Made by a program: the position numbers and the translations under genes
The notes under the pieces: model-generated
Databases searched by the model: none
Told to the model about the DNA's origin: nothing
The model's input: the letters and a program-made list of their open reading frames with translations, nothing else
Source: Tepidisphaeraceae bacterium
GTDB taxonomy: Bacteria; Planctomycetota; Phycisphaerae; Tepidisphaerales; Tepidisphaeraceae
Assembly (NCBI GenBank): GCA_035998445.1
Contig: DASYHQ010000032.1
Location: forward strand, 1 to 64,000
Direction: 5' to 3'
Length of the DNA stretch: 64,000 bases
Part shown: in pieces, positions 54,553 to 63,489 of the stretch
Numbering within the stretch: the first letter of the stretch is position 1
Layout of the letters: each line of letters starts with the position of its first letter

Positions 54553-56022
54553 TCATTCCATCTGCGCGCTGGCGCCCTCGCGGCGGCCGGTGTCCTCAGA
54601 ATCAGGGTCGACGGTCACCCGGGCAACCGCGCCGCTGAAATCGCTGGACTCCATCGCCGGCACCACGGCCCGGCCGACGCCCGCGGCGACCAGGCGGGCG
54701 GCGAACGTCTCGGCTTGGTCGGCTTCGCCATGTACGATATAGGCGGTGGTCTGCGGCTTTAGCGTCGGTCCGAGGAAGCGCAGCAACTCGTCACCGTCGC
54801 CGTGGGCGCTTAAGCCATGCAGCGTGCGCACCTGGCACTTCAGGTCGTACCAGCGGTCGAGAATGCGCACCCGCGTCTGCCCCTCCTGCAACCGCCGGCC
54901 GAGCGTGTGCGGGGGAATCCAACCGACGAAGACGATCAAGTCCTGCTCGCGCTCCACGCTCATCGCCACGTGGTGCAACACCCGGCCAAACTCGCACGTC
55001 GGGCTGCTGGCGATGATGACGCACGGCCCACGGTCGGCGTTCACGCGCTTGCTCTCCTCTCGGCTGGTGGCGAGCGTGACCTTCCCCAGGCCGAAGAGGT
55101 CCTTCTGGCCGATCAGCTCCTGCGTCTGCGTGTCGTAGTTTTCGCGGAACTCGGAGGTGATGCGCGTCACCTCGGCGCCCATTGGGCTGTCGACATAGAT
55201 GGGGATCGATGGGATCTTCCCCTCGGCCACGAACTTCTGCATGTACCACAGCACCGTCTGCGTGCGCCCGACGGCGAAGCTGGGGATGATCAACCGGCCC
55301 TTGCTGCGGATGATCTGCTGGACGGCTTCCAGGAATTGCGGTTCGACGTCGTCCATCGGCCCGTGCGCGCGTCCGCCGTAGGTGCTTTCGGTGATGACGA
55401 CGTCGAACGTGCCGGCCAGTGGTTCGGGGTCGCGCAGGATGGGGGTGTCGTAGCGGCCGATGTCACCGGTGAACAGCAGCCGGCGTTTCTTGCCGAGTTC
55501 CTCGAATTCCATCACCACGTACGCCGAGCCGAGGATATGGCCGGCATCGTGGAACGTGAACGAGACACCGTTACCCAAATCGGTCGGCTGGCGGTAGGGC
55601 GTGCGGCGGAACGCCTTCAGCACCGCGCCCACATCGCTGAACGTGTAAAGCGGGCTGACTTCTTCCCCCTGCGGCGAGCGCGATCGGCGGTTCAGGTACT
55701 CGGCGTCTTCCTCCTGAATGCGGGCCGAGTCCTGCAGCACCACCCGGGCCACCTCGCAGGTGGCGGGCGTGGCGTAGATGGGGCCCGTATAGCCCTCCCG
55801 CAGCGCCACGGGCAGTCGGCCGCAATGGTCGAGGTGCCCGTGCGACAGCACGATGGCGTCCAGCGAGCGCGGGTCGAACGACTGGTATTCGTTGATCCGC
55901 CTGGCCTCGTCGCGCTGGCCCTGGTACATGCCCATGTCGAGCAGGATGCGTTTTCCGTTGATCTCCACGAGGTGCGACGAGCCGGTGACGGTGCGGTTGG
56001 CGCCGCAAAAGTGGATGCGCAT
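54553..56022 (-). CDS. MBL-fold metallo-hydrolase with beta-CASP and RNA-specificity domains
   Basis: 489 residues from ATG at 56022 (MRIHFCGANRTVTGSSHLV). Metal motif HGHLDHCG (about 60), then HDAGHILGSA (about 165), LFTGDIGRYDTP and LHGLSAHGD are the metallo-beta-lactamase motifs. Between them is a beta-CASP domain (IPIYVDSPMGAEVT) and an RMMBL segment (RTLHGLSAHGDGDELL). This is the CPSF73/Ysh1-like bacterial group of exonuclease/endonucleases acting on RNA or DNA. No start-associated ribosome site is seen; a start 12 codons earlier is also possible. The family's bacterial substrate is uncertain. Confidence 0.9.
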   Translation of the reverse strand: MRIHFCGANRTVTGSSHLVEINGKRILLDMGMYQGQRDEARRINEYQSFDPRSLDAIVLSHGHLDHCGRLPVALREGYTGPIYATPATCEVARVVLQDSARIQEEDAEYLNRRSRSPQGEEVSPLYTFSDVGAVLKAFRRTPYRQPTDLGNGVSFTFHDAGHILGSAYVVMEFEELGKKRRLLFTGDIGRYDTPILRDPEPLAGTFDVVITESTYGGRAHGPMDDVEPQFLEAVQQIIRSKGRLIIPSFAVGRTQTVLWYMQKFVAEGKIPSIPIYVDSPMGAEVTRITSEFRENYDTQTQELIGQKDLFGLGKVTLATSREESKRVNADRGPCVIIASSPTCEFGRVLHHVAMSVEREQDLIVFVGWIPPHTLGRRLQEGQTRVRILDRWYDLKCQVRTLHGLSAHGDGDELLRFLGPTLKPQTTAYIVHGEADQAETFAARLVAAGVGRAVVPAMESSDFSGAVARVTVDPDSEDTGRREGASAQME

Positions 56023-56071
56023 GGAGGAAGGGTAAGCGTCCCAGGCCATTTGCACCATATTGAAGGATCAA

Positions 56072-56135
56072 GACCTCGCCACTGAAGTGGCAACGCCGTC
56101 GAGCGGCGCGGCGTTGCCACTTCAATGGCGAGGTC
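56072..56135. repeat. Long inverted repeat (26-bp arms, 1 mismatch)
   Basis: GACCTCGCCACTGAAGTGGC...GCC (56072-56097) pairs with GGCGTTGCCACTTCAATGGC...GTC (56110-56135) around a 12-nt loop. The region 56023-56339 contains no gene besides this element. The inner CCACTGAAGTGG is also found inside the vWA gene at 24601. It lies in the divergent gap between the metallo-hydrolase and the GspF-N-like gene. Confidence 0.85.
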
Positions 56136-56339: not shown

Positions 56340-57260
56340 TTGCGATATCTTTTCCGAGGCTTGATTCGCGAGACCGGCAAGCCGGTCGTTGGTCACGTAG
56401 AGGCCGACACCGAAGAAACCGCGTTTAATGCGCTGGCCGACAACGGCATTGTGACCGAGTCGCTGAACCCGGATCCCAAGCCCAACTTCCCCGCCCCCAA
56501 CATGGGTCAGGCGCCCCGGTTCGCCGACGCGCTCGACTCTGCGTTCGACGCCAGCGCGCACCAGATCGCGTTCGACGACCTGACGGAGCGTTATCGCGGC
56601 AAGCGGGTGTGGGTGATCGACCGCGACAAGATTCGCCGGCGGGTGTCGCAGGTCGTTGACCAGGCGATGGCCGAGGCGCAGAGCGAACTCGACAGTGATA
56701 CCGAGACGCGCGAGCGCGTCGCCAAGGCGATCGAAGGGCTGTTCAAGGACAGCAAGAACATCACCAGCCCGCAGACGCTGGAGCCCCCGCGTCCACCGCA
56801 GCCCGCGGCTCCACCGCCGGTGCCCGCCAACTTCGCCCCTGCCGGGCCCGTCGCCGGTGGTCCGGTGCTCGATGCCCAGATCGACCGGCTGGCGAACCTG
56901 ATCACGACCGCAGAAACCGTGCTGGCCAGCATCCAGGCCGCCGCCCGCAACGCCAGCTTTGGCCGCGGTGGTGGTGGTGAAGGTGGTGGCGGTGGTGGCC
57001 GTCGTCGCGGTCGCGCCAGCAAGGTGAAGATGACCGACAACGACGTGTTGTTGGAAATCTTCAAGTCGAACATGCAGTTGCAGCGTGGCGTTACACCGCC
57101 GCCTGCTCCACCCTCGGTCACCGACACCGGTGACGTTCCCGCCGAAGCCTCAGCGGTCGCCGAGGCCGACGCACCAATGGAAGACGCCCCAATGGCGGAG
57201 GCCGATGGTGGCTCCGACGAAGGCACGCTGCCTGTGGCATCGGGCGACGATAAAGCCTGA
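56340..57260 (+). CDS. Hypothetical protein with GspF/PilC-like N-terminal segment, upstream of a MamK-like actin
   Basis: 306 residues from TTG at 56340, with GAGG 6 nt upstream. The first 45 residues (MRYLFRGLIRETGKPVVGHV, ADTEETAFNALADNGIV) resemble the short N-terminal domain of GspF/PilC (compare YRYESKSANGKAQSGIL of the pilC product at 31860). No T2SSF domain or membrane helix follows. The middle (about 85-140) is helical and charged; then comes a Pro-rich linker, a coiled coil (QIDRLANLITTAETVLASIQ), a Gly/Arg-rich patch (about 215-230, GGGGEGGGGGGRRRGR) and an acidic tail. Separated by 241 nt from the actin gene on the same strand. Function is unknown; a cytoskeleton adaptor is a guess. 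Confidence 0.75.
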   Translation: MRYLFRGLIRETGKPVVGHVEADTEETAFNALADNGIVTESLNPDPKPNFPAPNMGQAPRFADALDSAFDASAHQIAFDDLTERYRGKRVWVIDRDKIRRRVSQVVDQAMAEAQSELDSDTETRERVAKAIEGLFKDSKNITSPQTLEPPRPPQPAAPPPVPANFAPAGPVAGGPVLDAQIDRLANLITTAETVLASIQAAARNASFGRGGGGEGGGGGGRRRGRASKVKMTDNDVLLEIFKSNMQLQRGVTPPPAPPSVTDTGDVPAEASAVAEADAPMEDAPMAEADGGSDEGTLPVASGDDKA

Positions 57261-57501
57261 GCCACCGATAGCCGATGATCTGCTCAGGAAGGGCGCGAAG
57301 CGGTGACCAGAGTGGAAACATCCGATCGTACCCAACTGTCATAGGACGTATATTTTACCGATTTTACTAGCACGCTTTCGGACGCGAGGTTAGAGTCGCC
57401 TAACCCAAAGGCGGAGGTCTCCCCCGCAAGCGCGAGCGGTGCAATTCAAACCAAACAAGCAAAACAGAACAAAACAACCCCTTTTTCGGAGTCTGACATC
57501 C

Positions 57502-58623
57502 ATGAGCGAAAAGTCGAGCATTCGTCCCCAAATTGGTAAGAACATCATTGCCTCGCGTCAGCGTGACGATGATGGCGGTCAACAGACGGAGCCGTTGCTC
57601 CTGGGCATCGACCTTGGCACCAGCCGCAGCTCGGTCGTGAGCCTGGACGGCAAGCGCAAGACCGTCGAGAGCTACGTCGGCTACCCCAAGGACGCCGTGT
57701 CGCGCAAGCTGTTGAAGGCCGACGTGATCTTCGGCAAGCACGCCTTGGACAACCGCCTGGCTGTCGAACTGTACCGTCCGCTCGAGAAGGGCGTGATCAA
57801 GGGCACGTTCGACGGTGAGGGTGGCACGCAGGACCCCGAGGGTCGCAACGTCGAGGCCTCCAAGGACCTGATCCGCCACCTGGTGGAGATGATGGAGCCC
57901 GGCCGCGACGAGCAGATCTTCGCCGTCATCGGTGTGCCGTCGCTCGCCAGCTCGAAGAACAAGCAGGCGATGATCGACGCCGCCAAGGACAGCTGCGACG
58001 CCGTCATGCTCGTCAGCGAACCGTTCACGGTCGCCTACGGCATGGAGAAGATGAGCGACATCCTCGTCATCGACATCGGCGCCGGCACGAGCGACTTGTG
58101 CCGTATGCACGGTACGGTGCCGACGGAAGAAGACGAAGTGACGATCCCGATCGCCGGTGACGCGGTCGACGCCAAGCTGATGGAGCTGATCAAGCAGGCC
58201 TACCCGCAGGCCTCGATCACGCTGAACATGTGCAAGGCGTTCAAGGAACAGTACGGCTACGTGTCGGACACGAAGGACAAGATCGAGGTCCTGCTGCCCG
58301 TCGCCGGTAAGCCGACACCGCACGACATCACGGGCATCATGCGTGACGCGTGCAGCATCCTGATCGACCCGATCGTTCAAGGCATCCACAAGCTGGTCAG
58401 CACGTTCAACCCCGAATACCAGGAACGCCTGCGTCAGAACATCCTTCTGTCGGGTGGTGGTGGCCTGATGCGTGGCCTGAACAAGCGTCTCGAAGTCGAG
58501 ATGGAAAAGATCGTCGGTGGCGGCAAGGTGACGATCGTCGAGGAACCGCTGTACGCGGGTGCCGTCGGCGCGCTCCAGCTCGCTCAGGATATGCCCGCCG
58601 ACTATTGGCAGCAGCTCCGGTAG
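57502..58623 (+). CDS. MamK/MreB-family actin-like cytoskeletal protein
   Basis: 373 residues from ATG at 57502 (MSEKSSIRPQIGKNIIASRQ). Actin-fold motifs: phosphate-1 LLGIDLGTSRSSVVSLDGKR, phosphate-2 ILVIDIGAGTSDLCRMHGTV, and adenosine motif ILLSGGGGLMRGLNKRL. Several stretches recall the magnetosome filament protein MamK as remembered: VGYPKDAVSRKLL, VIGVPSLASSKNKQ, VSEPFTVAYGMEKM, FNPEYQERLRQNI, LAQDMPADYWQQL. No magnetosome genes are nearby. It should polymerise with ATP on the cytoplasmic side; what it positions is unknown. A strong terminator follows. The 241-nt region before it has a GGTTAG...CTAACC hairpin near 57392-57411. Confidence 0.9.
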   Translation: MSEKSSIRPQIGKNIIASRQRDDDGGQQTEPLLLGIDLGTSRSSVVSLDGKRKTVESYVGYPKDAVSRKLLKADVIFGKHALDNRLAVELYRPLEKGVIKGTFDGEGGTQDPEGRNVEASKDLIRHLVEMMEPGRDEQIFAVIGVPSLASSKNKQAMIDAAKDSCDAVMLVSEPFTVAYGMEKMSDILVIDIGAGTSDLCRMHGTVPTEEDEVTIPIAGDAVDAKLMELIKQAYPQASITLNMCKAFKEQYGYVSDTKDKIEVLLPVAGKPTPHDITGIMRDACSILIDPIVQGIHKLVSTFNPEYQERLRQNILLSGGGGLMRGLNKRLEVEMEKIVGGGKVTIVEEPLYAGAVGALQLAQDMPADYWQQLR

Positions 58624-58653
58624 TCTCCAAGGCAGTTCCGAGAGACTTTCCGT

Positions 58654-58699
58654 AACGAAACGAGCGGGCCGGCACGAAAGTGCCGGCCCGCTTTCGTTT
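58654..58699 (+). terminator. Strong intrinsic terminator after the MamK-like gene
   Basis: AGCGGGCCGGCAC (58663-58675) pairs perfectly with GTGCCGGCCCGCT (58680-58692) around a GAAA tetraloop; flanking AACGAAA and TTTCGTT extend the pairing. TTTCGTTT follows. Ends the actin transcript. Confidence 0.85.
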
Positions 58700-58724: not shown

Positions 58725-58826
58725 GTCATCCCGATGGGAGCCTTGGCGACCTGAGGGATCTCCCAGTGGCGTGAATCGCTCGTCATTCGAGATCCCTCAG
58801 GTCGCTACCGCTCCCTTCGGGATGAC
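58725..58826. repeat. Palindromic repeat family C, copy 2
   Basis: GTCATCCCGATGGGAGCCTT...CTGAGGGATC and GAGATCCCTCAGGTCGCTAC...CGGGATGAC form long imperfect arms. It differs from copy 1 mainly in the centre and in a few arm bases. 58624-58940 holds only the terminator and this element. Confidence 0.88.
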
Positions 58827-63396: not shown

Positions 63397-63489
63397 GTCA
63401 TCCCGAAGCGCAGCGAGGGATCTCGAGAGGCCGCGAATCGCTCGGCTGTTCGAGATCCCTCAGGTCGCCAAGGCTCCCATCGGGATGAC
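63397..63489. repeat. Palindromic repeat family C, copy 3
   Basis: GTCATCCCGAAGCGCAGCGA...GGGATCTC pairs imperfectly with GAGATCCCTCAGGTCGCCAA...CGGGATGAC. The left arm differs more than in copies 1 and 2. It lies between the GT39-like gene and the convergent acyl-CoA synthetase. Confidence 0.85.

Follow-up and report, generated by a model that had tools for sequence, protein, structure and literature searches.

A MamK-family actin and a conserved upstream coiled-coil protein as a candidate filament–adaptor pair in a Tepidisphaeraceae bacterium

The stretch of DNA analysed here, referred to as the window, is 64,000 nucleotides long and carries two genes on one strand that are separated by a gap of 241 nt. 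The upstream gene, designated here the adaptor gene after its putative role, runs from a TTG at 56340 to a stop at 57260, a start supported by the conservation of the N terminus from the start codon onwards in nine orthologues. The downstream gene runs from an ATG at 57502 to a stop at 58623 and encodes an actin. Directly 3′ of the actin lies a stem-loop, which is likely to mark the end of a two-gene unit; the terminator-like pattern at this position was called on the minus strand, and the stem is symmetric. The features of the locus are as follows:

56340..57260, plus strand: adaptor gene, TTG start, 306-residue product; beside the actin in nearly all actin genomes of the class, no known family
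56340..56477, plus strand: small domain resembling the GspF/PilC N terminus, residues 1–46, beta-beta-alpha-beta (AlphaFold pLDDT 91–93 at residues 1–40; hhalign)
56571..56750, plus strand: conserved strand-helix module, residues 78–137, including YRGKRVWVIDRDKIRRRVSQVVDQA (orthologue alignment; pLDDT about 80–85)
56862..56954, plus strand: long helix or coiled coil, residues 175–205 (predicted helix)
56955..57017, plus strand: Gly/Arg-rich linker, residues 206–226 (sequence; orthologue alignment)
57030..57092, plus strand: C-terminal tail helix NDVLLEIFKSNMQLQRG (adaptor family signature; tail profile)
57502..58623, plus strand: MamK-family actin, 373 aa (model score, PDB sequence, tree, fold)
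57502..57594, plus strand: actin N terminus, an extension of about 31 aa modelled with low pLDDT, preceding the MamK core that starts at residue 32
58663..58692, no strand: 13-bp, GC-rich stem-loop directly 3′ of the actin

Neighbouring genes with a family match encode BamA, AlaRS, a beta-CASP nuclease, UvsE, a siroheme synthase, and an acyl-CoA ligase. No mam gene was found among the neighbours tested by family models, and a whole-genome search of the window's genome returned no magnetochrome match over the cut-off, in agreement with the initial annotation, which had seen no other mam gene nearby. Judged by the neighbours tested, the window actin does not lie within a magnetosome gene cluster, as a magnetosome MamK in the functional sense would.

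The beta-CASP metallo-nuclease gene (54553–56058, minus strand) has the type VII CRISPR Cas14 model as its top NCBIfam match, at 360 bits against a cut-off of 800; with a score below that cut-off, its product is probably an ordinary beta-CASP RNase. An inverted repeat at 56072–56135 (27-nt arms, 96% complementary, 10-nt loop) sits between this divergent gene and the adaptor gene. A 38-nt element, GAGATCCCTCAGGTCGCCAAGGCTCCCATCGGGATGAC, is present in two exact copies at 58725–58762 (minus strand) and 63452–63489 (plus strand); its 31-nt core has 145 copies in the genome at up to three mismatches, against none for the reversed control, and the element is thus highly repeated and REP-like.

Model score, comparison with PDB sequences, phylogeny, and fold all place the actin in the MamK family. 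It passes the NCBIfam MamK model (NF040964) narrowly, with 407 bits against a cut-off of 400 (E 5e-122), and its residues 32–372 cover that model almost fully. Scores fall below the cut-offs of the BeeR model (216 bits versus 530), of the MreB models (61–70 bits; NCBIfam MreB cut-off 366), and of the ParM model (19 bits versus 417). Among PDB sequences, MamK ranks first (E 1e-76), followed by BeeR (E 1e-42) and MreB (E 3e-15). Three stretches that had initially been likened to MamK—VGYPKDVIGLKLL, VDIGAGTTDICALKGTV, and LAEELPPQYWRQL—have true counterparts in the alignment with PDB MamK, and both proteins have the nucleotide-site motifs with their glycines and aspartates. The AlphaFold model of the actin (pLDDT 70.6) gives the same ranking by fold with VIA-align: MamK 5ljw leads with Z 30.7 (rmsd 3.0, 327 residues aligned), ahead of BeeR at 27.5 and other actins and MreB at about 24.

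A tree of 88 sequences separates the MamK group from MreB with an SH-aLRT of 100 and unites the actins of the window's class in one clade (support 100); it resolves little of the inner order among MamK, planctomycete, archaeal, and BeeR sequences. The window actin is therefore placed with MamK and far from MreB, and the genome encodes a separate, ordinary MreB (462 bits on PF06723). Marine archaea (Poseidoniia/marine Euryarchaeota; L073–L077, L079, L084, L085) also possess MamK-group actins, about 38%–42% identical to that of the window. Five of these are in the tree and form one clade (99); the archaeal loci have a different upstream gene, with no tail recognised.

Close relatives of the actin occur in 10 of 298 genomes of the window's class; an actin fragment at a contig edge in genome G287 was set aside. 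Across the phylum, 144 of 392 sampled genomes encode a MamK-like actin at E≤1e-25, nearly all of them outside the window's class, whereas magnetochrome, a marker of magnetosomes, exceeds its cut-off in only 4 of the 392. Non-magnetosome MamK-like actins are therefore usual in the phylum, and a MamK without magnetosome genes is no peculiarity of the window's genome. Planctobacterial relatives of MamK already feature in earlier literature (PMC7203096), and Planctomycetota MamK was used for the tree in PMC10653835.

The 306-residue adaptor protein gave nothing above chance with Pfam and NCBIfam models, and a PDB fold search with its predicted model (pLDDT 62) returned no match at E≤0.001 and none with Z of 8 or more. 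The short GspF-like segment reported in the initial annotation is borne out by profile–profile comparison: residues 10–44 align with GspF N termini over 35 columns (probability 89%, E 2.6e-6), the GspF side consisting of only three sequences. No Pfam match to the T2SSF domain was found in the protein at E≤10, also as first described. The likeness to GspF/PilC is thus confined to this 35-column similarity; the adaptor differs in being without the T2SSF membrane domain and in that its small domain occurs in other proteins too. Among the adaptors, those of the window's class were the only ones seen to carry the domain, which is also present in other planctomycete proteins (L230, L231, L220), some of which have membrane helices. 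Its value as a pointer to a secretion or pilus machine was accordingly lost, since it is class-limited in the family and found in unrelated proteins. The resemblance to GspF says little about the function of the adaptor. Since further proteins encoded in these genomes contain the GspF-like domain as well, naming a secretion machine as the cargo would be no more than guesswork.

The remaining parts of the protein are more widely shared. The strand-helix module centres on VWVIDRDKI in class orthologues, and its pattern L..(K/R)G...V.VL....I..LI..AV recurs in adaptors phylum-wide; a D.G.AS.Y..VQGL stretch is likewise shared by many adaptors across the phylum. The coiled coil and the Gly/Arg patch noted at the outset are both present, the former as a predicted helix of 31 residues with a conserved LERR..KL...L..TE..L in the wider family, and the latter with GGGGG..PRR kept in most class orthologues. 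The family signature is a C-terminal tail, LLxxIFxxNLxLR (also written LL..IF..NL.L(R/Q)), and a profile of this tail finds the window's adaptor gene as its sole significant match in the window's genome (E 3.1e-6). The 50 seed tails were picked with a pattern requiring Asn, and the invariance of that residue among them is by construction.

The presence of the adaptor gene tracks that of the actin. Within the class, nine of the ten genomes with the actin also have the adaptor gene, whereas the 288 without the actin gave only three weak, unrelated matches; the probability of this co-occurrence is about 2e-16 with kinship ignored, as it is in all per-genome counts, genes being called as open frames. 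In the exception, G055, the actin lies at a contig edge and no adaptor was found anywhere in the assembly. Flanking genes in the compared neighbourhoods differ from those of the window with two exceptions, and almost only the pair is shared; the pair is therefore kept together while its surroundings change.

The association extends beyond the class. A profile made from the nine class adaptors alone was searched against DNA translated in all six frames, comprising 87 MamK-like loci held out from the profile and 77 controls with MreB or other actins. Each of the 18 matches at E≤0.01 was the gene directly 5′ of a MamK-like actin and shared its strand, and at E≤0.05 this position was taken by 26 of 27 matches; the controls gave none at either threshold. 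A profile of the tail alone, built from 28 loci, matched 24 of 62 held-out loci, 23 of them in the expected place, and again none of the 77 controls. Beyond the class, 62 loci of the phylum extend far enough upstream to be judged; the tail is recognised by profile in 49, some with weak scores, and as a visible variant in four more, leaving nine with no recognisable tail gene. Loose patterns in a first motif scan had shown no enrichment over controls; it took profiles to tell signal from background. The upstream gene, whose conservation had been named as a check, thus adjoins the actin both in the class and in phylum loci. With the actin grouping with MamK and not with MreB or ParM, neither of the two outcomes that the initial annotation had named as refuting came about. 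The product of the upstream gene represents an undescribed coiled-coil family found beside MamK-like actins across the phylum.

A whole-genome tail search was positive in 27 of 27 actin genomes and in 0 of 8 genomes without the actin, with a sensitivity that is partly in-sample, the profiles including sequences from the searched genomes. Thirty-one of 36 matches at E<1e-4 lay just 5′ of the actin; the other five are proteins of like make-up elsewhere in the genome. Tail adaptors away from the actin occur in actin-bearing genomes (L241, L242, L243, L244, and L065:10388–11563), some with GGDEF-like fronts, and these are possibly extra adaptors for the same filament. Among adaptors generally, Pfam recognises GGDEF in front of 6 of 54, one of which reaches 57.6 bits on TIGR00254 against a cut-off of 37.4. 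A PilZ-like front was seen by eye in some adaptors (L186, L187, L209), and Pfam finds PilZ in one adaptor only (E 0.006). The neighbours of the phylum loci, 81 in all, have no family in common that would indicate a shared functional theme.

Similar tails also appear in loci of the magnetotactic type. In an Omnitrophota locus (L067), beside FeoB, a tail gene directly precedes the mamK frame. In two Desulfobacterota loci, weaker similar tails end the gene before mamK; L068 carries a CDF transporter nearest MamM/MamB, and L081 carries FeoB. These Desulfobacterota tails are suggestive, as the two score only 4.8 and 7.7 bits in the held-out test. No tail was recognised at Magnetococcales or archaeal Poseidoniia loci or at two BeeR loci.

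The closest known arrangements are MamK–MamJ of Magnetospirillum and MamK–Mg-1g50 of Magnetovibrio blakemorei, which share with the window a MamK-family actin and a partner gene immediately upstream. MamJ and Mg-1g50 are experimentally studied MamK adaptors encoded in that position, and in the known case the partner tethers cargo to the filament (PMC10653835). The window pair differs in having no magnetosome genes and in an upstream family with a conserved coiled coil and LLxxIFxxNLxLR tail; its adaptor is like MamJ in gene position. BeeR of Verrucomicrobiota, which forms a three-stranded tubular filament, is likewise a MamK-related actin from bacteria that are not magnetotactic, and its N terminus is extended by about 30 residues (PMC11929497); the window actin, however, is well below the BeeR cut-off and in a separate clade, and neither of the two BeeR loci examined showed a recognisable tail gene upstream. 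In Desulfovibrio magneticus, a MamK-type actin also works with coiled-coil proteins, the Mad proteins (PMC12748827), but there the magnetosome cluster holds several different ones, whereas the window has one dedicated partner.

Taken together, the two genes probably constitute a cytoskeletal module of filament and dedicated adaptor, similar in kind to MamJ–MamK and serving a non-magnetosome cargo. The MamK-family actin would polymerise with ATP. The N-terminal domain of the adaptor would dock cargo or read a signal, its coiled coil would bring about dimers or oligomers, and the C-terminal helix, LLxxIFxxNLxLR, would grip the filament. The adaptor reading is preferred because the protein depends on no neighbour but the actin, conserves its C-terminal helix, and varies its front; that helix could instead bind something else or serve self-assembly. 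Of the positioning filament and adaptor proposed in the initial annotation, the pairing is conserved, and more broadly than had been suspected, while polymerisation, binding, and positioning are what we infer from it.

The upstream protein might instead regulate the filament, its C-terminal helix acting on nucleation, turnover, or capping and its variable N-termini serving as signal inputs rather than cargo docks. We regard this as rather unlikely. GGDEF domains in adaptors elsewhere and the one weak PilZ match would fit such inputs, and MamJ/LimJ also control MamK turnover (PMC10653835); the GGDEF catalytic motif, however, looks degenerate by eye, and regulation and tethering are compatible with each other. 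The whole-protein profile further aligns the tail, in register, with the actin-binding WH2 motif of WAVE1, but only at E 0.07 and aided by an engineered Gly-Ser linker, and the tail alone does not find WH2.

A WH2 identity for the tail, prompted by its LLxxIxxGxxLKK spacing and the WAVE1 match, is unsupported by the tail profile, which retrieved no WH2 protein from the PDB; Pfam WH2 has no match in the adaptor. Comparison of the tail with WH2 sequences by hhalign gave P 0.04 in a column-shuffle test, which is only suggestive, and the resemblance is a lead only.

In both ParM–ParR and crenactin–arcadin, the partner of the actin attaches to it by a C-terminal helix. A pair for DNA segregation like ParM–ParR, in which the adaptor would bind DNA and hold the end of the filament with its C-terminal helix as ParR does, would likewise join adaptor and actin in one unit. 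It is very improbable here: the ParM score of the window actin is far below the cut-off, the gene is not plasmid-borne, and no DNA-binding domain was recognised in the adaptor. A role in plasmid partition is rejected on searches of 72,556 plasmids and 50,697 phages, which found no relative of the actin, and on the missing iteron array, absent both between and before the two genes.

Finally, the possibility that the pair is left over from a magnetosome gene cluster, or is a silent piece of one, is scarcely credible despite the MamK kinship of the actin, the planctomycetes thought to be magnetotactic (PMC12748827), and the tails upstream of mamK in one Omnitrophota locus and, weakly, two Desulfobacterota loci, given a genome without a magnetochrome match over the cut-off, the rarity of magnetochrome against the actin in the phylum, and a pair conserved without mam neighbours.

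For the filament–adaptor reading, the wider implication is that a partner family tracking MamK-like actins phylum-wide offers a concrete candidate for how such filaments are used without magnetosomes, and that the question of what MamK and BeeR relatives do in ordinary bacteria gains a defined second component. With the family recognised by its C-terminal helix, a 20-residue peptide becomes a testable element. MamJ is one of the few known partners of MamK and is reported missing outside magnetospirilla (PMC10653835). More tentatively, MamK-type actins may be an old and mostly non-magnetosome cytoskeleton served by a widespread, undescribed family of adaptors that keep one conserved C-terminal helix for binding the filament and exchange their N-terminal domains for different cargoes or signals; the mamK of magnetosomes might then be one specialised use, and the Omnitrophota/Desulfobacterota tail gene might be the counterpart of MamJ that is missing from deep-branching magnetotactic bacteria. 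The setting of the pair is a phylum known for complex cell interiors.
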